A stretch of 24,101 nucleotides of DNA from a virus. The stretch is from positions 1 to 24,101 of IMG/VR virus record IMGVR_UViG_3300009285_002968. The stretch is one strand, 5' to 3'. Below are positions 3,413 through 24,101 of this stretch, piece after piece; the first letter of the stretch is position 1; each line of letters starts with the position of its first letter. Below the pieces are notes generated by a model that was not told where the DNA came from, did not search any database, and worked only from the letters and a program-made list of their open reading frames with translations. A program made the position numbers and the translations under genes.

Positions 3413-3832
3413 ATGCCATTTTTACCTTATAATTTCGATGAAGGAAGGGTTGTTTTGTTGCAAGTCGCAGCTACTACTTTCACAAAAGGCGATGCTTGCG
3501 TGCATGATGGCTCGGGGCAGATGGTCAAAGCTACAGCGGGAAATGGAGCGGGATTAATGTATGTTATTGCTGAAACCGTTTCAACAACCGCGACTGCCGG
3601 AGACCTTCACGCTTTTTGGGATGCGGGTCCAAGTATGGAGTTCGTTGCAAATACTACGGCAGATCCTACTCAAGCGCAGTGCGGAACTTTTGTTGACCTT
3701 GTGACTAACGCGGGGACATTGGACACGGCAGCTTCAACTGACGATCTTTTCTTTGTATCGAGAATTGACGGAGCGCTTGCTGACAGAAAAGTGATTGGTC
3801 ACTTTACTCCTTACGCTCCAGCCGTTGAATAA
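3413..3832 (+). CDS. Probable capsid decoration/stabilisation protein
   Basis: The 139 residues are beta-rich and lack charged helices. The N-terminal half contains a KGDACVHDGSGQMVKATAG stretch, the pattern of small beta-barrel proteins (DUF2190-like, lambda gpD-like) that sit on the capsid surface, and it ends in an acidic domain with VSRIDGALADRKVIGHF. The gene lies 30 nt before the major capsid gene, the classic place for a decoration protein. There is no Shine-Dalgarno; the start is preceded by an AT-rich leader that resembles the leader of the capsid gene. A head-stabilising role is likely, but family membership is by pattern only. Confidence 0.68.
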   Translation: MPFLPYNFDEGRVVLLQVAATTFTKGDACVHDGSGQMVKATAGNGAGLMYVIAETVSTTATAGDLHAFWDAGPSMEFVANTTADPTQAQCGTFVDLVTNAGTLDTAASTDDLFFVSRIDGALADRKVIGHFTPYAPAVE

Positions 3833-3862: not shown

Positions 3863-4846
3863 ATGCCATTAACTACTACAGATTATCCCAAACTCACCCA
3901 GAAACTGAACGAGGTTTTCAATGAATCAGCCTCGTCTGCTATGGAGGAGTGGATTGGGAGACAAATCTTTGATGTCATTGACACAGACTGGAAAATCTAT
4001 GACTACCTTTCATTGCATGGGGTAGGTGGATTTGCCAGGGTTGCTGAAGGTGGAGAGTTGCCGACTGTATCTTCCGTTGAGGGAGATTCGGCTGCTTGGA
4101 CACAGAAACGCTACGGGGACAAAATCTCTGTCACGAAAGATATGAGAATGTTCGACCGCTACGATCAGATGACGGAGGCGGTGTCTTCCGGCGTTGATGA
4201 AGCGTTTCACCTCGTTGACCAGTCAATGGCTGACGTTCTTACGAACGGTTTTAGCGGAACAACTTATACGGATGTATTCGGCGACACCGTTGCTAATACT
4301 GCGGTTGATGGGGTTGTTCTCTTCTCGGCTTCACACACAAATAACCTCAATTCGACAACTTACAGGAACTTGATTAGAAATGCCGCAGGGACGGCGAACC
4401 CGGCTCTCGATAGAGACCCGATTGTAAAGGCTCGCTCGGACGCGCGGACATTCAAAGATCCGAACGGTATCAACAGGCCGACAATGCTCGATACTCTCAT
4501 TGTATCAGCGGCGAATGAGGACTTGGCCGAAAGGCTAGTTTACTCGCAAGGCGTTGCAGGAACTCCGAACGTGGACATCAACCCAATTAAGGGCAAGATT
4601 AAAAATATAATCGTTTGGTCTAAATTGGACACTCGTTCAGATGGAACAAATACTTCTGCTTATTGGTTTATGTCTGATTCAAGAAAAGTAAAGAAATCTT
4701 TGAAAGCTCCATTTGCCCAGAAACCAAAAATGCAGGCGGCCGAACAGGTTACTGAAACCCAAAACTGGCTTTATCCGATTGACGCTTACTACGTTATTGG
4801 GATTGGTTACGTTCCTTTTGTCTGGGGTTCGACAGGAGCTAACTAA
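3863..4846 (+). CDS. Major capsid protein (HK97 fold, Mu gpT-like)
   Basis: The 327 residues form the shell subunit. Recognisable features in order are: an N-terminal helical arm with EEWIGRQIFDVIDTDW; a GELPTVSSVEGDSAAWTQKR stretch leading to DKISVTKDMRMFDRYDQM, similar to the E-loop/spine region; VVLFSASHTNNLNSTTYRNL, which recalls the LFS-x-H-N element of Mu gpT-type capsid proteins; PTMLDTLIVSAANEDLAERL; and a C-terminal WLYPIDAYYVIGIGYVPFVWG like the A-domain end. No protease domain is fused, and the length suits a mature-size subunit with separate scaffold. It follows the decoration-like gene and, further upstream, the scaffold-like gene. The start is the first ATG after an AT-rich leader. 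Confidence 0.9.
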   Translation: MPLTTTDYPKLTQKLNEVFNESASSAMEEWIGRQIFDVIDTDWKIYDYLSLHGVGGFARVAEGGELPTVSSVEGDSAAWTQKRYGDKISVTKDMRMFDRYDQMTEAVSSGVDEAFHLVDQSMADVLTNGFSGTTYTDVFGDTVANTAVDGVVLFSASHTNNLNSTTYRNLIRNAAGTANPALDRDPIVKARSDARTFKDPNGINRPTMLDTLIVSAANEDLAERLVYSQGVAGTPNVDINPIKGKIKNIIVWSKLDTRSDGTNTSAYWFMSDSRKVKKSLKAPFAQKPKMQAAEQVTETQNWLYPIDAYYVIGIGYVPFVWGSTGAN

Positions 4847-4879: not shown

Positions 4880-5203
4880 ATGCTTAATTACGCAAATCTA
4901 GTTGGGCAAGGAAGAGCAAAAGACATCGGCATCCCCTGGACTCCAGAGGAAAACGAACTTCTGCATTTAATTGTTCAAGAGCGCGGTATGGCTCGCGTGA
5001 CAGTGGCGGATTATTTAAGGATGGGCGACATTGAATCTTTAGAAGATTTTGATGCAGTCATCAAAAAAGGAATAATTCCGCAAACACGTGAAGAGCTTGA
5101 AAAAGAAGCAAAAGCAAAGGGAGTGAACTTTGATGAGGGAACTCCTGACACAGTGCTTGCGAAGCACGTTGGTAAGGCGAAAGAAAAAAAGAAACCAAAA
5201 TGA
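4880..5203 (+). CDS. Small head-region protein with Lys-rich tail
   Basis: The 107 residues begin with a helical part (YANLVGQGRAKDIGIPWTPEENELLHLIVQERGM, in pieces) and continue with VTVADYLRMGDIESLEDFD, then end in a strongly basic tail (AKEKKKPK). The position right after the major capsid gene suggests a head-completion or connector protein. I do not recognise the family. Near its end the frame carries the heptamer A AAA AAG (5185-5191), correctly phased for -1 slippage, and the -1 frame leads straight into the next gene, whose ATG overlaps this stop (ATGA, 5200-5203). A minor fusion product is possible. Confidence 0.72.
   Translation: MLNYANLVGQGRAKDIGIPWTPEENELLHLIVQERGMARVTVADYLRMGDIESLEDFDAVIKKGIIPQTREELEKEAKAKGVNFDEGTPDTVLAKHVGKAKEKKKPK
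5185..5191 (+). promoter_or_regulatory. Candidate -1 ribosomal frameshift site (A AAA AAG)
   Basis: The codons GAA AAA AAG AAA contain a heptamer in the phase needed for simultaneous -1 slippage, the same heptamer as in E. coli dnaX. After slippage the ribosome would read GAA ACC AAA and continue in the frame of the 5200 gene. No clear downstream stem is seen, so efficiency is uncertain. Confidence 0.35.
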
Positions 5204-5676
5204 ATTACTTAAAACAAAATCATCTTGCGTTGCTTATAATTGCCTACTTGATTGCCGCCCCATTTTTAATGGGAAAGGAAGTGAAACTTCCTGATCTTGG
5301 AGCGTCAAATGCTCTTACCACCATTACGAATAGGTGGCGCTTCAGCACCGAAGGAAGTCAGTTTTCCAGGATTCTTCATGGAACTTGCAATCTCACGATA
5401 AATTCCGGTTATCTAAGCACTACGAATGCGTCAAATACGATGCAGGCGACCTGTGCGGTAACTGGAGTTGATTCAGGAGATGTTGTATTTGTTTCTATGC
5501 CACGAGCAAGTCTGATAGGGAATCAGGCCGTTCGCGTAGGCTTCTGGGCTATAGCTACGGAAGCAACTTCTACAGACCTCATTGGAGTAACAATTTTCAA
5601 TGGTTCTGGCGCAGCGACTACATCCTTCCCACTTGCAACGACTTCAGTTCAGTACCTAATCTTCGACACACCGTAA
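5200..5676 (+). CDS. Exported or membrane-anchored beta-rich protein
   Basis: The 158 residues begin with a Sec-type signal or anchor: a basic start, then a hydrophobic segment at about 9-24 (LALLIIAYLIAAPFLM). The remainder is Ser/Thr/Asn-rich and beta-like, with two cysteines near 64-81 that could form a disulfide after export, and a segment SGDVVFVSMPRASLIGNQAV that resembles trimeric beta modules at the ends of phage fibre proteins. It carries TEATSTD, the ATST-type sequence common in Patescibacteria exported proteins. The ATG overlaps the previous stop by 4 nt. Its stop codon lies within the base of a long stem-loop. A role at the cell surface or on the virion is inferred; no enzyme motif is seen. 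Confidence 0.7.
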   Translation: MNYLKQNHLALLIIAYLIAAPFLMGKEVKLPDLGASNALTTITNRWRFSTEGSQFSRILHGTCNLTINSGYLSTTNASNTMQATCAVTGVDSGDVVFVSMPRASLIGNQAVRVGFWAIATEATSTDLIGVTIFNGSGAATTSFPLATTSVQYLIFDTP

Positions 5677-5762: not shown

Positions 5763-6314
5763 ATGAAAAAAAATAGATTACTCTTTTTCTCTGGCCTAGC
5801 CGCTCTTCTCTTTGGCGGACTAGGCCTTTCTGTTGAAGCAAATCCATCTGGGTTCTTTACTAACTGTGCTACTAATACATCAACGTCCACCGTTAGCTTG
5901 ATGACCGCTGGCACTGCTACCACCACTCTTACTTGTAATCTTGGAGGAGCCGATCAAAGAGCTGTGGAGTCTGCCGTGTTAACGATTTTCTTCAACGCTT
6001 CTTCTACCTCCTCTGTTCTTAAGGGGAATCTTGAATACTCAAATAACGGAATCGATTGGTTTGAGAACAACCTTGGAGATCTTACTGATGTTGCGACTAC
6101 AAGCCCGACTGCTTCAATCGGAGCGGTTAAGGGATTTTCGATGCAGTATGCCTCCTCTTCACAGGGGCAACTTGGGCTGGCTAAACGAAACTATATCTCC
6201 AAAATAATGGAGGTCAAAACTCCAACTCGATATATCAGGGTGATTTTCTCTCTACCCGCTGGTTCGGCGAACGGAGGTGTCTGGGCACAGATTATAGGCA
6301 AGAAACAAAACTAA
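5763..6314 (+). CDS. Secreted protein with cleavable signal peptide
   Basis: The 183 residues start with a textbook signal peptide: KKNR, a hydrophobic core from about 6 to 22, and a likely cleavage after VEA at residue 26. The mature part is Ser/Thr-rich and beta-like (TSTSTVSLMTAGTATTTLTC), contains two cysteines near 35 and 58 that could pair, and has a region EYSNNGIDWFENNLGDLTD followed by TPTRYIRVIFSLPAG, which looks like a carbohydrate-binding-type or discoidin-like beta-sandwich. The ATST-like bias again recalls Patescibacteria surface proteins. It lies between head and tail genes of a phage, where exported proteins are unusual. The start follows an A-rich leader with no ribosome binding site. 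Function unknown. Confidence 0.75.
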   Translation: MKKNRLLFFSGLAALLFGGLGLSVEANPSGFFTNCATNTSTSTVSLMTAGTATTTLTCNLGGADQRAVESAVLTIFFNASSTSSVLKGNLEYSNNGIDWFENNLGDLTDVATTSPTASIGAVKGFSMQYASSSQGQLGLAKRNYISKIMEVKTPTRYIRVIFSLPAGSANGGVWAQIIGKKQN

Positions 6315-7805: not shown

Positions 7806-9298
7806 TGGCAAAGATTCCCGAAGGAGTTAAATATGCTGACTTCATGGGCGGACAGGCAAACAACATAAACGTAACACTCGCCCCGAAGAATACGGTTGAA
7901 TTGGGATTGAATTTCGATTTTGATTACGAGATTGGGGCTGCGACTACCCGACTCGGATTGACTCAAATTGACTCACAACTTGTGAACGACAAATCTATTC
8001 TTGGTCTTTTCCAGCACGTTGATCAGGGAGACACAACAAAAAATAAATTATTTGCTTCTATAAATGATGCTACAAATACGAATTCAGATATTTGGGACTT
8101 AGACGGAACGCCTGCAATTTCTCTTGCGGACGATACACAGGGGCTTAAAACCTATTGGCTCAATTACGCTGGAGACACAGTTCGCCTTAATGGAACGGAT
8201 GCTCCGAAAGCCTACAATTCAGCCTCTTGGATAACTACAGGAGGAGTTTTTGACCTTGCTAATATGCCGACAGCATATAAATATCCTAAAGAATTTTTAG
8301 ACAGAGTTTACCTATGGGGGAATTCTTCTGCTCCTTACACACTGGCGTATTCTGGAATCCTTACTGCGGGCACAGTTTCATGGACTTCAGGCAATGGGAC
8401 AGTTCAAATCGAACCTGAAGACGGAGGAGGAGAAGGAACAGGACTCGGCAAAGTCCCCGGCTATATCCTTATTTTTAAAAGGCGTTCAATGAAGCGTTGG
8501 AATTACAGCTCTGCTTTCCCGGAATCTTTAGTTAATATTGGCGCTTATTCGCAGGAAAGTATTGTTGAAGGGGGAGGGCTTTGCGCTTTTTATTCAGATT
8601 CAAATGAGGACGCAAAGGGATTTTATGTAACGAACGGCGGACGACCGCAGTGCATTTCAAAAGATAATAATCGTCCGATTACAAAATGGGTCAATGCGAT
8701 TGGCGCTACAGCAAATGTCGCTGGATATGCTACTGACAGGGTTTTTGGATGGAGCGTTGGAGATTTAACAGTCGATGGGGAATCTTTTACAAATGTCGTG
8801 CTGCGTTATAACCGAATTTTAAATCAATGGAGCGTTAGAAGTTATCCAACGGAACTTAAAGTTTTCGCGCACTACGTCGCTTCAAAAGTTGGGCAGATTA
8901 TCGTTGGGGATGATGATGGGAATGTTTGGGAGTATGACAAAACAGGAAAATATCAAGACGGCTCAACGGACATCCTCTACAGGCTTCGCACCCAGCACGA
9001 TACTTTTAGCTACAACCAAATTAAATCAATGACGGATAGAGTCATTGTTAGGGGCAAGAATCTTGCTGGTGCAGTCGTTTCTATAATTAAAAATGAAGAT
9101 ATTGATACCACTGACCCAGTTGGAGGAGGTGCTTTATCAATCTGGAATAAAATTCTCGGCTGGATAGGAGTAAGTAAAAAAATTGAAGCAACAACAATGT
9201 CAGTTGAAATTAAAGGAACCGGAATGAATTCGGATCGAGTCCACGTTCGAGAGATTGAATTACCCGGAATAGAAGTTTTACAAAATTATAATGGCTAA
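7805..9298 (+). CDS. Tail nozzle/hub-like beta-propeller protein
   Basis: The 497 residues are almost all short beta strands with repeated blade-like units such as TKNKLFASINDATNTNSDIW, YPKEFLDRVYLWGNSSAPYT, GYILIFKRRSMKRWN, AKGFYVTNGGRPQCISKD, LRYNRILNQWSVRSYP and GQIIVGDDDGNVWEYD. That is the look of the podovirus nozzle or packaged-DNA-stabilising proteins (T7 gp12, P22 gp10), which close the tail channel. A last part from about 400 (TQHDTFSYNQIKSMTDRVIV) may contact the fibre. The start overlaps the adaptor stop by 1 nt and the stop overlaps the fibre start by 8 nt, so the three are co-translated. Family-level assignment is inferred from fold-like pattern and order. Confidence 0.65.
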   Translation: MAKIPEGVKYADFMGGQANNINVTLAPKNTVELGLNFDFDYEIGAATTRLGLTQIDSQLVNDKSILGLFQHVDQGDTTKNKLFASINDATNTNSDIWDLDGTPAISLADDTQGLKTYWLNYAGDTVRLNGTDAPKAYNSASWITTGGVFDLANMPTAYKYPKEFLDRVYLWGNSSAPYTLAYSGILTAGTVSWTSGNGTVQIEPEDGGGEGTGLGKVPGYILIFKRRSMKRWNYSSAFPESLVNIGAYSQESIVEGGGLCAFYSDSNEDAKGFYVTNGGRPQCISKDNNRPITKWVNAIGATANVAGYATDRVFGWSVGDLTVDGESFTNVVLRYNRILNQWSVRSYPTELKVFAHYVASKVGQIIVGDDDGNVWEYDKTGKYQDGSTDILYRLRTQHDTFSYNQIKSMTDRVIVRGKNLAGAVVSIIKNEDIDTTDPVGGGALSIWNKILGWIGVSKKIEATTMSVEIKGTGMNSDRVHVREIELPGIEVLQNYNG

Positions 9299-11954
9299 AC
9301 TTGCCTACAACATAGATGACGTATTAGGAAACCCAATGGCAAGAGTTATGGAAGAACCGATTCCTTCTTTTGACGATACTTTTTATTCTGCTGTTGGCCC
9401 CGCCTCCCTTGATTCCGGCCAGCTCTTATCAAACATAGAACAGAAATCTGGGACGCTTTGGAATGGGAAGACTACTTTTGCAAACACAGTCGCCGGTTAT
9501 CGCTTAGGGGTTGATTCTTCAGACGGGCTTCTTAAATTTTATATCGGAGATGCAACGAATTATCTAAACTGGACGGGAACGGCGCTGACTATTGCGGGGT
9601 CTCTTTCCGCGACTTCAGGGACTATTGGAGGATGGTCTATAAATTCCACTTCTATTTACACAGGAACAGAAGATTTTTCTGGATATACCGCAAACGCTGG
9701 GGACATCACGATTTATTCTAATGGAACGGATGCAAGTATCCACGCAAAAAATTGGTTTATAGATACTGCCGGAGTTCTTAACTGCACTGCGGCAGTTATT
9801 TCCGGGGCGATTACTACCACTGCGAGTTCTGTTTTAGACGGACAGTATCTTTCCGCTTTGAGCGTAGGCAATGCCGCGATAAATGATTTAGCTGTTACTA
9901 AACTTACTGCAGGCACTATTTCTTCAAAATCTATTGTTTTAGCTATTGCGGCAGGAACTGGTGACGTTGAAATTCGTTCTGGAATTGCCGCAGGAGATTT
10001 TGCAAACACCGGAGCCGCGTCAGGCTTTATCATTGGCCTTGACGATAGCGATTCTGATAAAGCAAAATTTTACTTCGGCAGTTCTACTAATTATGTTAAA
10101 TATGATGGGACAACTACAACTTTCAAAGGCGCGGTTACAATAGATTCTGGCTCTGGAATTGCAAATCTTTCTGATGCAGGGGCGCTCGCGACGGAAGATA
10201 GTGTAACTTCTTCGCTTGCTAACCTCGCTCTTAGAGGCTGGATACAAACTTCCGCATTTACTGTAACTGATTTAAATACGATTGCTTGGGGCACTGGAAC
10301 ATTTACGGCTTCAGATGGGACATCTTATTCCATCTCCGCTGGAAACACAGGCAACATGTCAGCTAAGACTTATGTTTATTTGGACATTGCAGTATCCACA
10401 ACTGCTTATCAAGTAACTACGACAGCGACAACGGCAATCGGCAATGGCAAAGTTCTTATTGCAATTTGTCAAAATGGGGCAACGGAAGCAGTTTTTATGC
10501 TTCTTAATAATAATTCTTACAACATTGATGCGGCGAATATCGTAGCGGGTTCAATAACTGCAAATGAGATAGCCGCTACGACAATCACTTCAGATAAACT
10601 TTCCGTCTCCCAACTCTCCGCCATCGCTGCTGATCTCGGCACGATCACCGCTGGAACAGTTACAGGCGCAACGCTACGCACTTCGGTTTCCAACCCAAAA
10701 TTTAATATAACTTCAACAGCTTTTCAGGGCATTGAGACCGGAGGTAATGTTGTCTTTGAAGTTGTCATTGACGGCGCAAACGCAGGCGACGTGATAATGG
10801 GTGATGACGCTACCGGTTCTTATGCTATGTGGGACGATTCAGCAGGAACTTTCCAGGTCTTTGCGGACAATATTCCCGTCTCAATTATTGGAACTTTTGG
10901 AGGAGATGGTTCGGACGGTGCACTTACGATTACTTCTGGCACAACAACTGTTTCTGCGGCGGGAGCGCAAGTTTTTTTGAGAAATTATACTTCTGTATCT
11001 ATAACGAGCACCGCAACTTTAACTTTTTCAAACCCCCATGCCTCGGGAACTATTTTTATAGTGAAATCTCAAGGCGCCGTGGTTCTCACCGCAACTACCC
11101 CTATAGATGTGTCAGCTCTTGGGGGTACTTCTGGAACGGGTGGGGCAGGTGGGTTGGGTGGTTCTAACGGAGCGACAGGTACTGATGGAACAAACGGAAG
11201 CGGAATTTTTGATGAATTAACAACCCACGATGGCGTTGGCGGTGCGGGCGGCGGAGGTGCCGGAGGAACTGGAGGTGTAGTTTTGTCTACCATTTCTGTC
11301 TATTTACGAAACGCTGTCGCTTTATCAAGAAGAATGACAATCTTCGCATGTGGTTCCGGAGGAGGAGGCGGAGGCGGTGGAGAAAGCACCTCATCTATTA
11401 ACGCATGGGATGGAGGAGCGGGGGGACGAGGCGGAGGGGCTATGTTAATTGAATGTCGTGGAGATTTGAATTTTACGGGCACTATAAATGCTTCCGGGGC
11501 GAATGGTTCTGATGGAGAGGATAGTATTGGGGGATCAGGCGAATCCAATGCCGGTGGTGGAGGCGGTGGCGGAGGCGCTGGGGGAATGGTTGCTATTTTG
11601 TATGCAACAGCAACAGCGACTTCTGGGACTATAAATACGGCGGGTGGAGCTGGTGGTGCTGGAGGAGATGGTGATTCAAATGGGGGAGGCTCTGCAACAG
11701 AGGTACAGGGTGGCTCCGGAGGTGGTGGAGGAGGTGGGACTGGAGGCAATGGAGCTGCTGGGGGGACAGGTTCAGCTAACGAAGCTGATGCAGGAGATGC
11801 GGGTGGCGCTGGAAGCAATGAAAGAAGCGGCGGCGGAGGAGGCGGAGGCAGTTCGAGACGTGGCAATTCTGCCGGAACTACATCTGGTGGTGCGGCAGGT
11901 TCGGCAGGTTCTTCTGAAAATGTTTATGTGGCTCAAAATAACGTGTTCGCTTAA
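9291..11954 (+). CDS. Tail fibre / receptor-binding protein with polyglycine C-terminus
   Basis: The 887 residues have a fibre layout. A short N-terminal anchor (about 1-60) is followed by a repeated fibre module: LGVDSSDGLLKFYIGDATNY near 70-90 recurs as GLDDSDSDKAKFYFGSSTNY near 247-267. In between are GTIGGWSINSTSIYTG and other elements typical of phage host-recognition proteins, and later ITANEIAATTITSDKLSVSQ. From about residue 605 to the end the protein is dominated by glycine (GGTSGTGGAGGLGG, GGGGGGGG runs) interrupted by strands (AMLIECRGDLNFTGTINASG, MVAILYATATATSGTINTAG). This resembles polyglycine-II receptor-binding domains such as the S16/T2 gp38 adhesin tips, and the GTINASGG repeat family. 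Receptor binding is a strong inference. The many antisense proline-rich frames here are mirror images of the glycine codons. Confidence 0.85.
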   Translation: MAKLAYNIDDVLGNPMARVMEEPIPSFDDTFYSAVGPASLDSGQLLSNIEQKSGTLWNGKTTFANTVAGYRLGVDSSDGLLKFYIGDATNYLNWTGTALTIAGSLSATSGTIGGWSINSTSIYTGTEDFSGYTANAGDITIYSNGTDASIHAKNWFIDTAGVLNCTAAVISGAITTTASSVLDGQYLSALSVGNAAINDLAVTKLTAGTISSKSIVLAIAAGTGDVEIRSGIAAGDFANTGAASGFIIGLDDSDSDKAKFYFGSSTNYVKYDGTTTTFKGAVTIDSGSGIANLSDAGALATEDSVTSSLANLALRGWIQTSAFTVTDLNTIAWGTGTFTASDGTSYSISAGNTGNMSAKTYVYLDIAVSTTAYQVTTTATTAIGNGKVLIAICQNGATEAVFMLLNNNSYNIDAANIVAGSITANEIAATTITSDKLSVSQLSAIAADLGTITAGTVTGATLRTSVSNPKFNITSTAFQGIETGGNVVFEVVIDGANAGDVIMGDDATGSYAMWDDSAGTFQVFADNIPVSIIGTFGGDGSDGALTITSGTTTVSAAGAQVFLRNYTSVSITSTATLTFSNPHASGTIFIVKSQGAVVLTATTPIDVSALGGTSGTGGAGGLGGSNGATGTDGTNGSGIFDELTTHDGVGGAGGGGAGGTGGVVLSTISVYLRNAVALSRRMTIFACGSGGGGGGGGESTSSINAWDGGAGGRGGGAMLIECRGDLNFTGTINASGANGSDGEDSIGGSGESNAGGGGGGGGAGGMVAILYATATATSGTINTAGGAGGAGGDGDSNGGGSATEVQGGSGGGGGGGTGGNGAAGGTGSANEADAGDAGGAGSNERSGGGGGGGSSRRGNSAGTTSGGAAGSAGSSENVYVAQNNVFA
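11120..11910 (+). repeat. Glycine-codon low-complexity region of the fibre gene
   Basis: Dense GGN codons, mostly GGA and GGT, encode alternating polyglycine runs and Ala/Ser/Thr spacers. There are at least six runs of five or more consecutive glycine codons or near-continuous glycine, for example around 11355-11383, 11553-11584, 11716-11745 and 11827-11850. Such runs are prone to slippage and recombination, so the region may vary in length between related phages. Confidence 0.85.
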
Positions 11955-13477: not shown

Positions 13478-14200
13478 ATGAAATTTCAAAAACAACAAAC
13501 TCCATGGAATAAAGGTAAAAAACTTCATTACCCCATTTGGAATAAAGGGAAGAAAGGTATTCATCTTTCTCCCGATACAGAATTTAAAAAAGGGTCTCGG
13601 GGTTTTACCGGAAAACATTCTGAAGAATCTAAATTAAAAATGAGTTTAGCTTCAAAAGGAAGGATAATGTCAGACGAATCTCGTAAAAAAATAAGTTTAG
13701 CGTTAAAGGGCAAAACGCCAAAGAATATTGTAGCAGGTTGGAATAAAGGAATGAAAATGCCACCTATGTCTGAAGAGACAAGACTAAAATATAGTCTTGT
13801 TCAGAAAGAGAGGGTAAAATTGGGATTAAATAATCTCCTTAATGGGGATGGTGCAAAAGGATGGAATAAGGGGATTAAGTTACCGCAAATTACCGGAGAT
13901 AAACATTGGAATTGGCAAGGTGGTATTTCTCCTGAACGACAAAAATATATGAGAACACTTGAATATAAAAGCTGGAGAGATGATATTTTCAAAAAAAATG
14001 ATTATAGTTGTCAGTTTTGCAAAAAGCGTGGGGAGAGAATTGAAGCTGATCACATTAAACCTTTTGCATGGTTCTCTGATTTACGTTTTGACGTTTCTAA
14101 TGGCCAAACGCTTTGTGTTGATTGTCATAAATGGAAAACGAGTATGGATATGAAAATTTTCACAGGGCGTGTTCCAGAATTAAATATTATTTATCAATAA
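13478..14200 (+). CDS. HNH homing endonuclease with NUMOD3-type motifs
   Basis: The 240-residue protein is a free-standing homing nuclease. It carries four WNKG motifs (at 10, 21, 88 and 129) and NUMOD3-like DNA-binding repeats at about 44-84 (HSEESKLKMSLASKG, SDESRKKISLALKGK). The C-terminal HNH domain has CQFC (178-181), the catalytic D191-H192 (EADHIKPF), N208 and CVDC-H (213-217), that is the HNH core with a zinc ribbon. Codons are more AT-rich than in the neighbours. The gene sits in the 734-nt interval between two structurally similar virion genes without breaking either one, the usual behaviour of free-standing homing genes, which cut near-identical sites lacking the insertion. Confidence 0.93.
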   Translation: MKFQKQQTPWNKGKKLHYPIWNKGKKGIHLSPDTEFKKGSRGFTGKHSEESKLKMSLASKGRIMSDESRKKISLALKGKTPKNIVAGWNKGMKMPPMSEETRLKYSLVQKERVKLGLNNLLNGDGAKGWNKGIKLPQITGDKHWNWQGGISPERQKYMRTLEYKSWRDDIFKKNDYSCQFCKKRGERIEADHIKPFAWFSDLRFDVSNGQTLCVDCHKWKTSMDMKIFTGRVPELNIIYQ

Positions 14201-15568: not shown

Positions 15569-18034
15569 ATGGGAAGATTATCAACTACAACTAGCAGGGG
15601 AAGATTAAGTTCGGGGTTAGATTTATCTTCGATTGAAGGTTTAGCCAGTTTTGCCAAATCAAGAGGGTTTGAAGAGGAGGCAAAGAAAGCGTTAGAGCCT
15701 CCAAAACTTTCTTTTTTACAAAGAATAGGAAGAGTTTTAACTTCATTTGAAACTGGCAATGCTCTTTATCAAAAGCGATATGAGCAAAAATCTTTTGGCA
15801 GAGAATATCTTTCTGACATAGGAAAAGACATAAAAGCTGGAATTACTGGACACGAAACTCGACTTACCCCTAAAAAAACCTTTAAAGATATTTTAGTTAA
15901 AGAAGGAATGAAAGATAGACCGGGTAAACTTGATGCTGTTGATGTTGTTGGATTGGCTGGAGATATTATTTTTGATCCAACTACATTTTTTGGGGGATAC
16001 GCAGGACGAGGGATAGCAAAAGGAGTTGGAAAAACTGTAAAGCTGGCAGAAAAAGCTCCGCTTATTGGCAAGACAGTTACGGCTGGGCGCGAAGGGGTTG
16101 AAGGACTTTTTAAGCCATTCGCAAAGATTGAAAAACTTGGAGAGAAAGGAACGCAGTATCGCGCCAATTTTGAAAAGTATGTTAAGGGTACGCGCTCAGA
16201 GATGGATGATTTTCTTAGTGAGGTTGCGACTAAGGCTAAGGGCGTTAAGCAAATAAAGGGAGCAGGGAAAACTATAGGAGAAGCAGTCGAGACTGGAACA
16301 AAGACAGGCAATAATCTTTTAGATGAGGCTATGGATTCTTTGGTTTCTACTCAAAGCAAATTTAAACAGGCAGAAATTACTAGAGGAATATTGGAGCACG
16401 AACTTCCTGATTATATGCACCATATGCTAACTACTGAAGCTCAAGACTTTATGTCTAAGGGGGGAGACTTAGCGCAATTTGTTAAACCTATTAGGGTAAA
16501 ATTAGGAGCGGCGAAAGAAAGAAAAATTGGAGGTATCGTTACTGAAATAAATAAAGAATATCAAAAGAAACTAGGCTTCAATCTTTTTGAAGAGGATGCT
16601 TTTACTGCGTTTTCAAAACGAGGAATAGACTCTATTAAAGCTATCAACACTCACGATTTTCTTGAAAGAGCAGGAACGCAATTTGGACAGAAAGTAGAAA
16701 AAGATTTCATTGATGAAGCTGGCGTTAGATGGATTGAAACTGGAGCAAAGCAATTAAAAGGAATTCGCGTTCCAGAGGCCATTGCCAGACACATAGACGA
16801 AACACAAAAGTTTTTAACAAATGACGAAGCTACTAATGGATTCCTGCGGGTTTATGATAAGCTCAATAATTTTTGGAAAGGAACGGTTACGGGATATTTC
16901 CCAGCTTTTCATACTCGGAACGCTATAGGAGGAACATTTAATAATTGGCTTGCCGGATTAAAAAACCCTCTTCGGTATATGGAAAATGAAAAGATTTTAC
17001 AAGGCAAGGCAGGAGTTGTTAAAGGCACAAAGCAGTATGGAGATTTGACTTACGATGCCATTAGGCAGGCATACAAAGAATATGGCGTTACTGGCCAAAC
17101 AGGAATACTCGATGTCAGAAAGTTTTTAGAGAAAGAAATTAGTCCCACGATTGGCTCAAAGATTGCTACATTGCCCCAAAAAACTATGGGGGTTATTGAG
17201 GATAGATTGCGTGGTGCATTGTTTCTTGATCGCGTTATCAAAGGAGATACTTTTGAACAAGCCGCCAAACAAGTTATCAAATTTCATTTTGATTATATGC
17301 CGGAGGGATTCACGGCTTTTGAAAAAAATGTAATGAAGCGCGTAATTCCGTTTTATACTTGGACTCGGCATAACATTCCCTTGCAGGTTGAGCAGATGAT
17401 TATGCAACCTGGAAAATATGCGGGAATATTTAAAGGATTTAGAGCTTTTGGAGTTCAACCTTCAAGCGAAGAAGAATCGATCTTGCCTCGTTGGTTAAGA
17501 GAGCAAATGACAATAAAAGGAGAGGGAGGCTATTGGTCTGGGTTAGGTCTTCCGCTAGAAGAAGCAACGCAAAAATTATCTGCGCCACTTAGGGGTTTTG
17601 GAATTTCTATGTCTCCATTTTTGAGAACTCCAATAGAAGCCCTAACTGGATATAATATTTTCAAAGAAAGAAGAATTGACGAAGATCGTTATGGAAAACA
17701 GTATAAAAACGCTCCGCAATTTTTAAAAGATTGGTTGGAACTTAAAGAAAGTAAAACAAAAGACGGAAAAATTTTTTATACACTAAATCCCCACAAACGA
17801 TATTGGCTGGAAGTTATCGGAAGCAGAGGATTAAGTACGGCAATTCGGGTATCAAATTATACAGATGATAAAAAGAATTTAGCGATTTTACTTACTACGA
17901 TTCGTAAATACGATTATGATGTTGAGGATTTAAAACGTTGGAGTGATGATGAAAAAAGAGATGAATTAGAAAAAGCTCTTATTGAAGCTGGAGAATTAAG
18001 AGAATTTAAACGAACTTATGTGCCAAAAAAATAA
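15569..18034 (+). CDS. Large internal virion protein, probably ejected with DNA
   Basis: The 821 residues are the largest internal-type protein here. The N-terminus is basic and Ser/Thr-rich. Glycine/alanine-rich amphipathic stretches ([40 protein letters not shown]) could insert into membranes. The central part holds [20 protein letters not shown] and [13 protein letters not shown], then [20 protein letters not shown]-type sequence near 590-610; these elements are familiar from very large phage internal and polyvalent proteins. The C-terminus is charged and helical. No lysozyme or polymerase motif was seen. It would correspond functionally to T7 gp15/gp16 or to polyvalent-type proteins, forming or escorting the DNA delivery channel. 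Exact family unproven. Confidence 0.65.
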
Positions 18035-18183: not shown

Positions 18184-18930
18184 ATGGCTTATAAAGATAA
18201 GGAAAGGGAAAAAGAGTATCAAAGAGAATATTATTTGAAGAATAAAAATAAACTTTTGATACAAAATAAAAAATATTATCTTGAAAATAAAGAGAAAATT
18301 TTAAAGTGTAATAAAAATTATTATCTTGAAAATAAAGATAAAATAAAAGTAAAACGTGTAGGTTATCATAAAGAATATTACAAAAATAATTTAGAAAAAA
18401 TAGAAAAATACCGTTTAGAGCATAAAGAAAAAAATAAAGAATATCAAAAAGTATATATATTAGAAAACAAAGATAAGATCGCAGAGTATCGTTCTAAAAA
18501 TAGAGATAAAATTTTAGAAATACAAAAAAATTGGCGTATTAAAAATAAAGAAGAAATAAGGAAATATGATAGAAAGTGGAGAGGCGAAAGATACATTTCT
18601 GATATTGGATTTAAGCTTCGTTCTGTTTTAAGGAGTTCTGTGCGAGATATAATTAAAAGAAATCAAAAATCAGGTTCTGCTATACGCGATCTTGGTTGTT
18701 CTATTGATGAACTCAAATTTTACATCGAAGGGCAATTCCAACAGGGGATGACATGGGATAACTGGGGAGTGATAGGCACCGGCAAAAAGTGGAATATAGA
18801 TCATAAGATACCGTTAGCTTTCTTTGACCTTACTGATAGAAAACAATTTCTCGTTGCGTGTCATTACACTAACTTACAACCTCTCTGGGCATTAGAAAAT
18901 ATTAGAAAAAGTAATAAAATTTTAATATGA
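18184..18930 (+). CDS. HNH/His-Me finger endonuclease with coiled repeats
   Basis: The 248 residues have a C-terminal nuclease: GCSIDELKFYIEGQF, then WNIDHKIPLAFF with D206-H207, followed by HYTNLQPLWALENIRKSNK with N230 and N239, the usual His-Me finger spacing. The first 135 residues are an unusual lysine/asparagine/tyrosine-rich array of roughly 15-residue units (YYLENKEKILKCNKN, YYLENKDKIKVKRVG), probably a DNA-contacting helix. The gene is far more AT-rich than its neighbours, preceded by 149 nt without a gene on the + strand, and its TGA stop overlaps the portal start (ATGA). It is likely a second mobile homing-type nuclease placed just before the portal. No zinc cysteines are seen. Confidence 0.85.
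   Translation: MAYKDKEREKEYQREYYLKNKNKLLIQNKKYYLENKEKILKCNKNYYLENKDKIKVKRVGYHKEYYKNNLEKIEKYRLEHKEKNKEYQKVYILENKDKIAEYRSKNRDKILEIQKNWRIKNKEEIRKYDRKWRGERYISDIGFKLRSVLRSSVRDIIKRNQKSGSAIRDLGCSIDELKFYIEGQFQQGMTWDNWGVIGTGKKWNIDHKIPLAFFDLTDRKQFLVACHYTNLQPLWALENIRKSNKILI
18274..18338 (+). repeat. Direct repeat inside the nuclease gene
   Basis: A 20-nt sequence beginning TATTATCTTGAAAAT occurs at 18274-18293 and again at 18319-18338, 45 nt apart, which is one 15-residue repeat unit of the protein. It indicates recent tandem duplication of that unit. Confidence 0.8.
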
Positions 18931-20852
18931 AAACTGAAGAAACATTGCCTCCAACTTATTTACCTACTGTTAAAGAAGCAGAGATAATTTCTGATACTTA
19001 TAAAAAATTAAGGGATATGATGGATTTGAAAATAAAAACCATGCCGCATTTCAGCGGGCCTGAAGGAGATAGAAGTTTTCTCCAATACATAGATGACTCA
19101 GAGAGAATTTTAAATGGGTGGACACCTAGTAGAGAAAGTCAGGGGAGAGATAGTTGGGAATCAAACATTATTGATAACATTACGCGCGTGAAGCTCCGCA
19201 CCATTGTTACCGCGGTCGGGCTTAATGTTCCGGCTATGAAATTCAAAGCTACCAGCGCTAATGGAATTCAATCCTCCCAGCGCTCCGAGATTATGAAGCA
19301 GACTGTCCGACACACCTTCTTACAGGGAAACCCTACAATGCAGGCATTCCTTGAACTCTGGCAGATGATGGCTCACGGAGTTACCTTCGTTTACGACGGC
19401 TATCTTTCAGGAGGAATGAAAAGGAAAGTTGTTACGGGTTTTAATTCAGAGACCGGAGAGGTTGAAACTGAAGAAAAATATGTGAAGGTGGACGGAAGAC
19501 CTTTTAATGCTATTCTTGACCCGCAGGATTTCTTCTGGTGGGACTTTTACAAAAGAGATATTCAAGACCAGCCTCATTTGGCTTGGCTCCAACGCTATAC
19601 GAAATCTGAAGTTGAGCAGGAATTTGGAAAGTTCAAAAATTATAAATACATAAAAAACAAAAAAGAACTTTCCAGCGCTTCACTTGAGCAGGAAACTCTC
19701 CACTTTAAAGCATGGTCGGATAGGCTTGACGACCATGACTACGAAGTTTTCAGATTTTATTCAAAAGAAGATGATGCTTATAGAATTCTTATAAATGGAG
19801 TAATTATATTGGATGCCCCGCTTTTGTGGGGGGATAAGCAAAAATATTATCCATTTGCTAAATCTATTTCTGAACCCTTTGCCAACTCCAACTTCTTCGT
19901 TGGAATAAGTTTTCCTGCTTTGCTTGAAGGCTATCAGATAGAAAAATCTACAACTTTAAATCTTCTTGTTAATAAACTTTATCGCTCGGTTGTTAAGCCA
20001 TATCTAGTCGGACTTGTTAATAAAGATGTTCTCGATATTGAATCTGAAATTATCAGTCAAGATTCGCGAATTTACGTTCCGGATATAGATCAGGTTAAGC
20101 CATGGCCTGCGGAGGGAGTCAATCAATCTGAACTTGCGATGCTCGCCGCAATGGATAGGTCTATTGATCTTCTTTCCGTAGATGTTACTCAACAAGGCCA
20201 ACAGAACAGGAGAAGTGCCACCGCAACCGAAATTAAAATTGCAGACGAGAGAGCGCGTCAGATGAAAGGAATGTTATTTATGTTCTTAGAAGACCTATGG
20301 CTTCAAAAAAATAAATTACGTGTCCGCACTATCCTTACTCAGTATCTTAAAGACAAGGCAAAAAGAGAAAACTACCGTGACAATATAATCACCGTGCCCG
20401 ACGTTACCTTCTCTGACGGGGCAAGGGGAACGCTCGATATTCACGTTGCAAATACCAAGTCAAAAATGCTTTCTATGTCTGAGATTAAAGCTAGAGAGCA
20501 GATAGCGCAGGAGCAGGGACTTCCCTACAAAATAATCTCTATGACAAAAGATTATCTTGACGACTGGGAATACGACTTTCAAGTTGTCACTGAATCTCTT
20601 TACAGCCAAGATCAATTCAAGAAAGGACAGGATTTCCAAGAAGAAATGCAGGTTGTCGCTACGGTCTTCCCAGAATATCTCGCGTCTAATAAAGATAAAT
20701 ACTGGAAAGAGTTTCTTGAAATTAAAGGAAAATCCGCCGATGATTTTAAACCCCCGCCTCCTCCGCAACAACAGGGTATGCCCGGACAAGAAGGAATGGA
20801 GGGCGGTATGCCGGGTCAGAGTTTATTGGGTCTGGGCGCACCAAAACAATGA
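18927..20852 (+). CDS. Portal protein
   Basis: The 641-residue protein forms the dodecameric ring through which DNA enters and leaves the head. It has the features of large podovirus-type portals: an acidic N-terminus, NIIDNITRVKLRTIVTAVGL near 80-100, a membrane-like wing with FLELWQMMAHGVTFVYDGYL, GRPFNAILDPQDFFWWDF near 190-208, a central FPALLEGYQIEKSTTLNLLV near 330-350, and ATATEIKIADERARQMKGML, the long helix near 430 that lines the channel in this family. The tail is disordered, rich in Pro, Gln, Met and Gly. The start overlaps the nuclease stop by 4 nt. In most phages the portal gene follows the terminase; here it is about 17 kb away, after the internal proteins. Confidence 0.85.
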   Translation: MKTEETLPPTYLPTVKEAEIISDTYKKLRDMMDLKIKTMPHFSGPEGDRSFLQYIDDSERILNGWTPSRESQGRDSWESNIIDNITRVKLRTIVTAVGLNVPAMKFKATSANGIQSSQRSEIMKQTVRHTFLQGNPTMQAFLELWQMMAHGVTFVYDGYLSGGMKRKVVTGFNSETGEVETEEKYVKVDGRPFNAILDPQDFFWWDFYKRDIQDQPHLAWLQRYTKSEVEQEFGKFKNYKYIKNKKELSSASLEQETLHFKAWSDRLDDHDYEVFRFYSKEDDAYRILINGVIILDAPLLWGDKQKYYPFAKSISEPFANSNFFVGISFPALLEGYQIEKSTTLNLLVNKLYRSVVKPYLVGLVNKDVLDIESEIISQDSRIYVPDIDQVKPWPAEGVNQSELAMLAAMDRSIDLLSVDVTQQGQQNRRSATATEIKIADERARQMKGMLFMFLEDLWLQKNKLRVRTILTQYLKDKAKRENYRDNIITVPDVTFSDGARGTLDIHVANTKSKMLSMSEIKAREQIAQEQGLPYKIISMTKDYLDDWEYDFQVVTESLYSQDQFKKGQDFQEEMQVVATVFPEYLASNKDKYWKEFLEIKGKSADDFKPPPPPQQQGMPGQEGMEGGMPGQSLLGLGAPKQ

Positions 20853-21670
20853 TAGACCAATATCTCACAGTTCAGGGGATGAAAGAGTTGGGACAATTTC
20901 TTGGAATGAAGCTCGACGAATTAAAGCGCGTTAATAAGATGGAGATGGATATGCGCCCGATGGAGAAGATGATGGAGGAAGACCACCGCTTAATGGCTCG
21001 GCTTATAATGCGTCTTGAAACTGCTTTAGGAAGAATTAAAGAACCAAAATTCACAGGGCAGGTTAAGGTTGATACTTCAACATTTAATAAAGAACTTCAA
21101 AATATCGTTAGTGAAATAAAAGACTTAGGCGAAGGACTTGTTCAAAGAATGCCTGACAATTCCGCCCTTGAGCGGGGATTAAAAATGCTTTTGGAAAAAG
21201 AACAGGATAATTCAAAAATTCTCTCCGCGCTTAGCGACTTAAAAACTATAATTGATAAAAAATTAAATATCCCTAGCACGATAAAAATTGACGACAATCA
21301 ATTCAGGGAACTTTCGGGCACTGCGCGCTATGGGGGTGGAGGAGTTATTGGATTAGGAGGAAGTGGAGCATTGCAAGGCAGAAGAATTACTATTAATAAT
21401 ACAACCCTAACGCTTGCAAATACGGAGTATAACTACGCGTTTCCGGCTACTACGGTTGCGTGGGTTGTTAAAACGCGGGCGCAGAACGTAAAACTTCTTT
21501 ACGCTTGGGGAACGGGGACGCTACCTACTTCAGGAGATGGCTCGGCTTATATGACTGTGCCTCAAAACTTTTTACGTTCACAAGATAATGTGGATTACGC
21601 TAATAAAACAATTTATCTACAGGCAGATGTCGCAGGAACTATCGTAGAAATAGAATCATATCAGAGTTAG
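20849..21670 (+). CDS. Virion protein: coiled coil plus C-terminal beta domain
   Basis: The 273 residues start with helical, Met/Glu-rich sequence (DMRPMEKMMEEDHRLMARLI, ALERGLKMLLEKEQDNSKIL) that should form a coiled coil up to about 145, then a Gly-rich hinge (RYGGGGVIGLGGSG) and from about 177 a beta-sandwich (ITINNTTLTLANTEYNYAFP, VKLLYAWGTGTLP, KTIYLQADVAGTIVEIESYQ). The last domain is typical of phage virion proteins that decorate head or neck; the coiled coil would trimerise it. The ATG overlaps the portal stop by 4 nt, so it is co-made with the portal. A neck or head fibre is the best guess. No enzyme motif seen. Confidence 0.68.
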   Translation: MIDQYLTVQGMKELGQFLGMKLDELKRVNKMEMDMRPMEKMMEEDHRLMARLIMRLETALGRIKEPKFTGQVKVDTSTFNKELQNIVSEIKDLGEGLVQRMPDNSALERGLKMLLEKEQDNSKILSALSDLKTIIDKKLNIPSTIKIDDNQFRELSGTARYGGGGVIGLGGSGALQGRRITINNTTLTLANTEYNYAFPATTVAWVVKTRAQNVKLLYAWGTGTLPTSGDGSAYMTVPQNFLRSQDNVDYANKTIYLQADVAGTIVEIESYQS

Positions 21671-21671
21671 G

Positions 21672-24101
21672 ATGACTCAAAATAAAAAAATCACAATAAT
21701 AATAATAATAATAGGAATAGCTACACTTTTTTCTATCCTCTTAATCCGTGATACAAGCGCCCAATCAGCGAGCGTCTGGTTTCCAGACGGGCAGGGAGAC
21801 AGCTATTTAGTCCCCGTTGATAGTCTTTGGGGACTTAAAGTCCCAGGTTTAGCGACATCAACCACCGGATGTTTAGGAGTAAATTCAACTGGTTGGATTT
21901 CGGCTTCTGGCTCTGCCTGCGGCACAGGAGTTGGAGGTGGTGGGGATAACCCTGGTTTTGACTTCATTACTATTGGAGGAACTTCTCATTCCGCTTCAAG
22001 CACAAGACCATTTTATTTTGGACAAGGCCTTCTTGCAGCATCTTCCACACTCGGTTATCTAAATGTTGGCTACATCAACGCCACTTCCACAACTGCAACT
22101 TCAACATTTGCGGGGGGATTAACTGTCAACGGAACAGGATTTGTTGTTAATCAAGGAGTGCCTGCGAATAGTTTTATTGTGAATACGAACGGAAATGTGG
22201 GGATTGGGACGGCGGTGCCAGCTTATCGTTTAGATGTGGTTAATTCAGTAGACGATTATGTTGCCAAAATTTATAACAGCACTACTAATACTAATACGCA
22301 TGGGGGATTACTGATTGATATGGCGCAGGGAGCAGTGGGTGCTGGCACAGCGTATGCTTTAGATGTAAAAGTGGAAAATGTCAGTCAATTTGTGGTTGGT
22401 CAAAATGTTGTTGCTTTTGGAAGCGGTGTTAGTCTAACTCTTGGGTCTGACAAATATATCGGTTATGATGTGAATCATTACTACAAACCATGGGATGGCA
22501 ATAACGCGGTATTACATCTAAGTAGTGACTCACTAAGAACGCGATATGATGCTAGCAATTATTTAGAAACGACGATTGGTTCTACAGGATTAGTTACACT
22601 CAATGCTGTTGGGAGTGGTTCTGCCTTTAGCTTTTCCGATAACGTCGGCATCGGGGAAACTGCACCAGGGTCAAAACTTTCAGTTTCAGGAGGAGGAACT
22701 TTTGGAGCAAGCTATGATACAACCGTCGCGCCAACAAATGGACTTTTGGTTGAAGGCAACGTCGGCATCGGGACAACCTCGCCATATTCGCTTCTATCAA
22801 TTTCCAATTCCGCAAGCACCGCCGCCAACACTCCGTTATTCACTATCGCTTCAACCACCGCCGGTACAGCGACTTCAACTTTGATGACAGTGTTGGCGAA
22901 TGGCAACGTAGGCATCGGGACGGCGAGCCCAACATCAAAATTGCAGGTGACAGATATTGGCAATACATATATTTCATTAAATTCGACTGCTAATACTCCA
23001 GAGGTGGCATTAAGTATGAACACAAATACTGATAGTTCAAACTTATGGTTGACAGGGATAAATGACGACAGCGCAAAAAACTATTCCATTACTTACGGCC
23101 CTGCCATTACATTGGCTGGAACTAAATTTTTGATTACAACAACCGGCAACGTCGGCATCGGGACGACGACGCCCGGCCAGAAACTTTCCGTCGCAGGTGA
23201 CATTCTTGGAAACAATATAATAGGTTCGTATTTCACAGGAACATCAACCGCAACATCAACATTCGCGGGTGGCGCGAGTATTGCCGGACTTGCGACAACA
23301 AAAGGACTGACAATTACTGGCGGCTCTTTGAATCTTAACGCTACAAATTACACAGTGCTTGATGGCAACGGACTTATCTCAACCTCAGGAACTCTAGCCG
23401 TTGGCGCGGGAACGTGTATCACAGTCAACGCCAATGATGTCGCAGTTACTTCTAACTGCACAGACGCGGCAACAGTGGATTCAATCGAGGGAGCTTCTTT
23501 GCTTCGTTCTAACGCTTCGGATAACTACACTTCAGGCACGCTAACTTTTGATGCGGCGACAACCCTCTCAATCGCAGGCACGCTCAATTACACGAACTCT
23601 GCTACCTCCTCATTTAAAGGTGGTATCCTTACCTCACAAGGTTTTAGTGGATTCTTTGGCTCATTCAGAAATTTAGAATTAGGCGACGGCACAGCAAGTT
23701 CTACTCTCAAATTTGATACTTCCGACGGGGGGCAAATTACTATAGCAACCTCTACTTCTGGTAGGGATGTGGTTTTAGGAGCCACTGTAAAAACCTTTTG
23801 GGGCGTTTCAATTGCCTCAACCACGATAGATTTAGGAGCAGGATTCGGACGCGCTAACGCCATAATTCCTATTCCCGCCAAGCACTACGGATATTCCATT
23901 TCCCATATTCAGTGCTCCACTTGGGGAGGTACGAATGTCGTTGTTGACCTCGGCCCTGACAACAGCGCAGGCTCAAACGACATTACTTGCACGCCAACTT
24001 CCACAACGACAAGACAACGCATTACAGGAAGCAATGTCTTTACTTTTGGGCAGGGAGGATTTCTTAGAATCATAAGCCAGTCAGGAACAAACAATTGGGT
24101 T
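21672..24101 (+). CDS. Exported fibre-like protein with NVGIGT repeats (3' end cut off)
   Basis: The frame starts 1 nt after the previous stop and stays open for 810 codons to the window edge. The first 30 residues form a signal peptide: TQNKK, then a hydrophobic core from about 9 to 25 containing six Ile codons, and likely cleavage after TSA. The mature part is Thr/Ser/Ala/Gly-rich and beta-like. Five copies of NVGIGT/E start at residues 175, 324, 363, 412 and 493, most followed by a Pro and K-L-x-V, the repeat found in trimeric phage fibres and in Patescibacteria surface proteins. ATSTTATSTFAGG-type sequence (22080, 23241) is also present. The end in the window (HYGYSISHIQCSTWGGTN) resembles a surface-binding beta domain. 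It is the strongest hint of the host group. Function as adhesin or fibre inferred. Confidence 0.85.
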   Translation, partial: MTQNKKITIIIIIIGIATLFSILLIRDTSAQSASVWFPDGQGDSYLVPVDSLWGLKVPGLATSTTGCLGVNSTGWISASGSACGTGVGGGGDNPGFDFITIGGTSHSASSTRPFYFGQGLLAASSTLGYLNVGYINATSTTATSTFAGGLTVNGTGFVVNQGVPANSFIVNTNGNVGIGTAVPAYRLDVVNSVDDYVAKIYNSTTNTNTHGGLLIDMAQGAVGAGTAYALDVKVENVSQFVVGQNVVAFGSGVSLTLGSDKYIGYDVNHYYKPWDGNNAVLHLSSDSLRTRYDASNYLETTIGSTGLVTLNAVGSGSAFSFSDNVGIGETAPGSKLSVSGGGTFGASYDTTVAPTNGLLVEGNVGIGTTSPYSLLSISNSASTAANTPLFTIASTTAGTATSTLMTVLANGNVGIGTASPTSKLQVTDIGNTYISLNSTANTPEVALSMNTNTDSSNLWLTGINDDSAKNYSITYGPAITLAGTKFLITTTGNVGIGTTTPGQKLSVAGDILGNNIIGSYFTGTSTATSTFAGGASIAGLATTKGLTITGGSLNLNATNYTVLDGNGLISTSGTLAVGAGTCITVNANDVAVTSNCTDAATVDSIEGASLLRSNASDNYTSGTLTFDAATTLSIAGTLNYTNSATSSFKGGILTSQGFSGFFGSFRNLELGDGTASSTLKFDTSDGGQITIATSTSGRDVVLGATVKTFWGVSIASTTIDLGAGFGRANAIIPIPAKHYGYSISHIQCSTWGGTNVVVDLGPDNSAGSNDITCTPTSTTTRQRITGSNVFTFGQGGFLRIISQSGTNNWV
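21696..21713 (+). repeat. (ATA)6 trinucleotide repeat in signal peptide
   Basis: Six ATA codons in a row encode Ile in the hydrophobic core of the signal peptide of the long exported protein. Length change by slippage would keep the frame and alter only the helix length, so this is not an on/off switch. Confidence 0.85.
22641..23163 (+). repeat. Repeated DNA motif coding NVGIG
   Basis: The sequence AACGTCGGCATCGGG occurs at 22641, 22758 and 23148, and with one change at 22905 (AACGTAGGCATCGGG). The last three also share a preceding GGC. An older, diverged copy lies at 22194. Near-identity in codons as well as residues suggests recent duplication or gene conversion among the repeats. Confidence 0.85.

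Follow-up and report, generated by a model that had tools for sequence, protein, structure and literature searches.

The last gene of the viral record analysed here codes for a fibre-like protein with an N-terminal export signal, and related phages keep a gene of this kind in the same place. The best explanation that we can offer, and one to which we would give about an even chance of being right, is that this protein (SP-fibre) is one of a conserved set of phage proteins, made late and exported through Sec, that acts on the surface of the infected cell, in a lineage of uncultivated tailed phages that probably infects Patescibacteria. Patescibacteria are tiny symbionts that live fixed to other cells, and hardly anything is known of their phages. 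The window, meaning the whole stretch of DNA that was analysed, is the entire IMG/VR record of 24,101 bases, and its last base falls inside the SP-fibre gene.

A fibre-like protein with an export signal

SP-fibre lies in a structural operon that reads from left to right, with head and packaging genes around it, among them TerL, a decoration gene, a major capsid protein of the Phage_capsid_4 type and an Hc3-like gene. The features of the window are as follows.

87-1646: TerL
2002-2313: GroES-like gene beside the terminase (PF00166, 1.2e-4; phrog_3188, 1.1e-6)
3413-3832: decoration gene
3863..4846, + strand: major capsid protein, Phage_capsid_4 (PF25209, E 5.5e-15; 63 IMG/VR relatives)
5200..5676, + strand: SP1, small signal-bearing protein (158 aa, 2 Cys)
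5763..6314, + strand: SP2, small signal-bearing protein (183 aa, 2 Cys, VEA-NP site; related proteins of this kind in L235, L237 and L240)
7805-9298: Hc3-like gene (phrog_578)
9291..11954, + strand: fibre with a Gly-rich tip directly after the Hc3-like gene, non-exported (no signal)
18927..20852, + strand: portal-type gene, called from its relatives (43-51% identity to five of them), its size and its position
20849..21670, + strand: coiled-coil protein with a C-terminal beta domain (ANTEYNYAFP...), no signal; stops 1 nt before the SP-fibre start codon
21672..24101, + strand: SP-fibre, signal-bearing fibre gene (810 aa read, open at the record end; same-position homologues)
21672..21761, + strand: signal peptide or export helix of SP-fibre, residues 1-30 (KK n-region, 19-residue hydrophobic core, TSA-QS)
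21762..21941, + strand: N-terminal module of the mature protein, VWFPD...VDSLWGLKVPGL...CLGVNSTGWISASGSACG
22626..22916, + strand: NVGIGE/NVGIGT repeat block (nearest host-chromosome matches, 59-66% identity)
23754..24101, + strand: C-terminal beta domain with the conserved Cys pair C748/C773 (alignment; model pLDDT 76)

The fibre at 9291..11954 is a candidate for the receptor-binding fibre of the virion. The portal-type gene matched no Pfam or PHROG family, and the portal, the capsid and the 6315-7805 proteins had no match among cultivated phages. Two apparent homing-endonuclease genes are placed among the structural genes, one with NUMOD3 and HNH domains (13478-14200) and one that is HNH-like by reading and starts with repeated YYLENK units (18184-18930). 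Upstream of the portal slot, 15569-18034 codes for a large Cys-free protein that may be an ejection protein, and this protein ranges from 821 to 2,082 aa across relatives (L004, 4904-9976; L006, 4574-9943; G002, 25737-31985). The relative L003 has a 90-aa protein, also GroES-like by eye, in the interval between terminase and portal (5172-5444). A record from another metagenome (L180/L285, IMGVR_UViG_3300025146_000084) encodes proteins near-identical to those of the window (100% for the capsid protein, 98% for SP1); it reaches about 3.1 kb further upstream than the window start and stops before the portal.

We called a signal where a protein starts with positive charge, continues into a hydrophobic core and is conserved in these features, with a motif of cleavage type in most members. 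Residues 1-30 of SP-fibre are MTQNKKITIIIIIIGIATLFSILLIRDTSA, followed by QS at the predicted cleavage site, and the top 17-residue Kyte-Doolittle mean of 3.21, at residue 9, is the maximum of the window. SP1 (5200-5676) reaches 2.42 and SP2 (5763-6314) reaches 2.13, with all other window genes at 1.54 or below. SP-fibre contains NVGIG(T/E) five times and ATST six times, where 5,000 shuffles of its own sequence average 0.001 and 0.15. Its match to a tail-fibre family (phrog_9942, 'tail fiber protein', E 2e-7) covers residues 387-615 only and is weak given the repeat text; this was the sole match in PHROGs, and Pfam and NCBIfam gave none. The first-pass annotation had described a signal-bearing, fibre-like NVGIGT/ATST protein inside a phage structural operon, and hydrophobicity, the TSA-QS site, the motif counts, phrog_9942 and the TerL and capsid neighbours all bear that description out. 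Tail fibres and tailspikes fold in the cytoplasm and carry no export signal, which sets SP-fibre apart from them, whereas its conserved signal and its Cys pattern would place it with XepA-like exported late phage proteins.

Judging from relatives, some 10-15 residues of SP-fibre appear to be absent at the record end. The annotation had proposed extending the contig to the end of the gene and searching the mature part against viral proteins; no contig extended the 3' end by exact match, and the direct search of SP-fibre in IMG/VR and cultivated phages returned nothing. The C-terminal domain had no significant PDB match (best E 0.003, low TM-scores).

The Cys pattern gives independent support for export. 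The six Cys of SP-fibre form three close pairs (67/83, 582/596 and 748/773). Across six phages, an even Cys count was found in 15 of 16 Cys-containing exported proteins versus 21 of 54 other structural-block proteins, a contrast with a Fisher p of 1e-4 that is too generous since the rows are related. In the SP2 family a Cys pair occupies two fixed columns in 4/4 signal-bearing members versus 0/15 signal-less homologues, and a model of the family puts the pair in the final two strands, adjacent to each other along the sequence. By counts this link between signal and Cys is strong; we downgraded it, because the SP2 tree needs one change only and the link is therefore a single event. That single event counts against a surface reading, as does the other SP2 kind, found in relatives (L235, L237 and L240), whose signal-bearing members lack Cys.

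The conserved junction and other exported proteins

Relatives were obtained only through portal, capsid and coiled-coil profiles. In all 11 records with a visible junction (the window, G001, G002, G003, G005, G793, G803, L288, L290, L296 and L303), the coiled coil is directly followed by a fibre gene whose product starts with a hydrophobic helix; in L296 and L303 the position of the coiled coil is taken by a repeated C-terminal domain of the coiled-coil protein. The order of portal, coiled coil and SP-fibre is kept, and neighbours overlap or lie at most 10 nt apart. Just after the helix, most of the 11 records have a W(F/Y)-D...WG module, for example SAQSASVWFPD...VDSLWGL in the window, SAQGADIWFPD...VDPTWGL in G005 and GQITLWFLD...VDSSWGV in L296, and in several relatives an AxA/G-Q type cleavage site precedes it. 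The helix of G001, G002 and G793 has no clear cleavage site, and these fibres may stay anchored. When nine SP-fibres were compared by BLAST with all genes of these phages, their modules had homologues only in signal-bearing proteins. Position, conservation, export signal, Cys pattern and module make-up can all be read directly from this comparison of sequences. The annotation had suggested that the gene may have been taken from a host surface protein. A one-off theft does not fit, since divergent phages share the signal, the N-terminal module and the gene order, and the homologous modules within the phage family occur only in signal-bearing phage proteins. Because related viruses keep the gene in the same place, SP-fibre probably acts on the exterior of the infected cell rather than being a chance acquisition.

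Two signal-bearing fibres (L267, 5972-9532; L266, 7628-11365) have, by eye, long right-handed beta-helix-like stretches of the tailspike or pectate-lyase type; L266 had no Pfam match, and neither had a match in PHROGs.

Exported proteins are also found elsewhere in these genomes. In the window, as in many relatives, one or two small proteins with a signal fill the post-capsid slot. A signal-bearing gene occupies the SP1 slot in 26 of the 56 capsid-protein records scored, part of which are near-identical, and on a capsid tree of 43 non-identical rows the trait changes about six times, in a clustered manner. A sister group without the slot signal has signal-less, often larger genes in the same slot. 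Behind SP-fibre, several relatives encode further exported proteins, namely a Laminin_G_3 lectin each in L003 and L303 and, in L288, a Gly-rich tip domain, and in G804 the phage's own signal-bearing fibre is followed by a CBM96 protein (Laminin_G_3, 9e-20 and 8.6e-26; CBM96, 2.8e-8; Gly_rich_2, 1.7e-9). Several unrelated neighbours of SP-fibres have canonical signals, such as AFA-AK and ATA-QS. The LamG lectin of L303 (10182-11453) is fused after a signal and a stretch, ERDYFVKNGKYLQI, that is type IV pilin-like by eye; in L003 a similar pilin-like stretch and LamG are two adjoining genes (11616 and 12029). Shortly after SP-fibre, L008 encodes a Phage_holin_4_1 holin and a protein with a weak papain-like match. 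Putative lysins lie beside the exported cassette in two relatives, papain-like in L008 (13805-14686; PF00112, 0.014) and NlpC/P60-like in L288 (9961-11250; 0.0038), both matches being weak, which suggests lysis of a protease or peptidase type in these phages.

Host and origin of the repeat text

The mature part of SP-fibre matched 44 of 287 Patescibacteria genomes of about 1 Mb (best E 1.9e-21; 59-66% identity over 60-95 residues), 17 of 198 Bacteroidota genomes (best 5e-14) and 26 of 144 Bdellovibrionota genomes (best 6e-12). Genomes of the latter two groups are three to four times larger than those of Patescibacteria, yet their best scores are weaker, and the search of Patescibacteria genomes that had been proposed earlier did place the best matches there. 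A profile of the N-terminal module was found in 4 of the 287 Patescibacteria genomes, in 1 of 198 Bacteroidota genomes (in a frame with stops) and in 0 of 58 genomes of a third group. The best host match (L172 in G286; E 1.9e-21 and 5.7e-19) lacks a signal within the first 60 residues, and its contig, C45, also carries the ribosomal-protein genes L7/L12 and L10, by sequence. Several other matching Patescibacterial proteins (L174, L175 and L176) are chromosomal giants with an N-terminal hydrophobic signal of their own. The fibre of L267 (G803) gave two matches only in 378 Patescibacteria genomes, both via the N-terminal module.

The repeat text had been put forward as pointing to Patescibacteria. 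This stands insofar as the chromosomal giants carry it, several of them with a signal, but it is not diagnostic: among the loci listed for the NVGIGTTSP codon pattern, 33 of 80 were CPR by title, and the remainder belonged to Bacteroidota, Pseudomonadota, Bdellovibrionota, DPANN and others. We therefore downgraded NVGIGT text as a host marker, as it is enriched in CPR without being exclusive to them. Capsid-protein relatives were found in 0 of 380 Patescibacteria genomes, and no portal relative came out of a pattern scan of GTDB genomes. An integrated or binned capsid or portal relative, as might mark a Patescibacteria phage, was thus not seen in these genomes, and a lytic phage need not have one. 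The gene text is closest to Patescibacteria, though not exclusively. Taken together, Patescibacteria are the likeliest host, as the annotation had proposed from the text: the matches of the mature part favour this assignment, and the capsid search does not.

The best host matches in the window are confined to about residues 319-415, which suggests that repeat blocks were exchanged with host proteins rather than that a whole host gene was captured. The earlier idea of a gene taken from the host may apply to this inner NVGIGT block and not to the rest of the gene.

Proposed function of the exported set

We infer the following course of events. SP-fibre would share a message with the portal and coiled-coil proteins, and the exported set would be made late, together with the virion genes. 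The N-terminal helix would carry SP-fibre over the membrane via Sec, with cleavage at the AxA/G site or, failing that, anchoring. Outside, the protein would fold with disulfides into a long fibre of phage type, located on the infected cell or around it, where it and the other exported proteins (the lectins, the CBM protein and the carriers of the Gly-rich tip) would most likely bind surface glycans. The phage's own receptor could thereby be masked late in infection, such that new virions would not adsorb again to the dying cell or superinfect it, and the sticking of the infected cell to its partner might be changed as well or instead. A surface role is supported by the export signal, the conserved order, the additional exported proteins, the Cys pattern, the restriction of SP-fibre modules to signal-bearing proteins and the adhesin-type domains on neighbours. 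It is also supported by the precedent of XepA, a late phage protein that is exported and absent from particles, and by the likeness of the SP2 model to it.

The main rival to a surface role holds that the exported proteins are genuine components of the virion that are acquired outside the cytoplasm, being exported by Sec, folded outside with disulfides and bound to the virion via the coiled-coil protein during or after release. We consider this unlikely, while giving it real weight. The coiled-coil gene and SP-fibre are strictly paired in 11/11 records, and from this adjacency to a signal-less gene the fibre could join the virion. SP1 and SP2 lie in a head gene slot, and sister phages make the SP2 domain without a signal in the same slot, so that this domain has a role that can be reached from the cytoplasm. 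The SP2 fold is also weakly like virion parts, the Pan3 needle of a cyanophage and the HFTV1 turret of an archaeal virus. However, the separate signal-less fibre after the Hc3-like gene, in the window and in relatives, means that the virion need not depend on SP-fibre, and the holin and protease-like gene beside SP-fibre in L008 suggest ordinary lysis. To our knowledge, no tailed phage exports fibres before assembly. That this lineage secretes part of its own virion, with Sec-routed, disulfide-bonded fibres fitted at or after release and the coiled-coil protein as docking partner, strikes us as distinctly improbable. The hydrophobic segment could instead serve within the virion, as a membrane-active tip or as a hydrophobic segment for oligomerisation or attachment, and the helices of G001, G002 and G793 without a clear cleavage site are in keeping with this. 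We judge it very unlikely, given the cleavage-type motifs directly before the conserved module in most others, the Cys pattern and the canonical signals of several unrelated neighbours.

It is also doubtful, in our estimate, that a host surface protein was captured and kept, as cargo or as a moron-like gene, for the host's attachment to its partner. The inner repeat block is closest to Patescibacterial chromosomal proteins, and help with attachment has been proposed as the role of LamG lectins in Patescibacteriota phages (PMC12911398). Against capture, the N-terminal module, the gene position and the coupling are conserved across divergent phages, other SP-fibres have, by eye, long phage beta-helix or tail-fibre inserts, and the best host match of the window is limited to the repeat block. 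An assembly or binning artefact that joined a host gene to a phage contig has a probability close to nil. Although the record is metagenomic, the gene runs off its end and no other contig confirms the 3' end, the same junction is present in ten other records, several of which continue through, and this conserved junction largely refutes a chimera.

If the surface reading is true, such phages would routinely remodel the exterior of the infected cell through a conserved, coupled cassette of exported fibres and lectins, and the cassette offers concrete candidate genes for superinfection exclusion or altered attachment. It also cautions annotators of such genomes against dismissing a fibre gene with a signal as a contaminant or as mere cargo from the host. 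XepA, PblB and Patescibacteriota-phage lectins are already known examples of phage proteins with a role at the surface of the cell (PMC6834076, PMC4508584, PMC12911398). In the literature searched, outside which most subscription journals lie, no paper that we found reports fibres with a signal from a structural operon of a Patescibacteria phage, and none describes a conserved, coupled cassette of such fibres inside a lineage-wide morphogenesis operon.

XepA of the B. subtilis phage PBSX is a late phage protein, reportedly exported during phage development and missing from mature particles (PMC6834076). A model of the SP2-family member L199 (pLDDT 82), which is neither the SP2 of the window nor SP-fibre, is a beta-sandwich like SPbeta YomS (E 4.5e-5; TM 0.55/0.74, with 0.74 on the target) and like XepA (8e-4), at a sequence identity of 14-16%. 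XepA and YomS are both late phage proteins, as the SP2 family would be, and XepA passes the membrane. Unlike SP2, XepA is part of a lytic cassette, and its export was called on experimental grounds, whereas that of SP-fibre is read from its signal and Cys pattern. Streptococcal PblB is a phage tail-type protein and cell-surface adhesin, with a putative signal peptide predicted in the pneumococcal form (PMC4508584). It resembles SP-fibre by description in being tail-fibre-like, with a surface role that SP-fibre would share; in contrast to SP-fibre, it is tied to tail morphogenesis, is freed on lysis to coat other cells and belongs to another host group. The concanavalin A-like/LamG lectins of Patescibacteriota phages are reported attachment genes, proposed to aid attachment (PMC12911398), and exported LamG proteins lie in or beside the same cassette here, in L003 and L303. 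Those lectins were reported as auxiliary, whereas here they are members of a cassette within the structural operon, with a coupled fibre gene at its head. The giant NVGIGT/ATST proteins of Patescibacteria resemble SP-fibre in their repeat text and in matching the profile of its N-terminal module, and they often start with a signal as well; they differ from it in being chromosomal, 1,300-3,600 aa long and without phage synteny.
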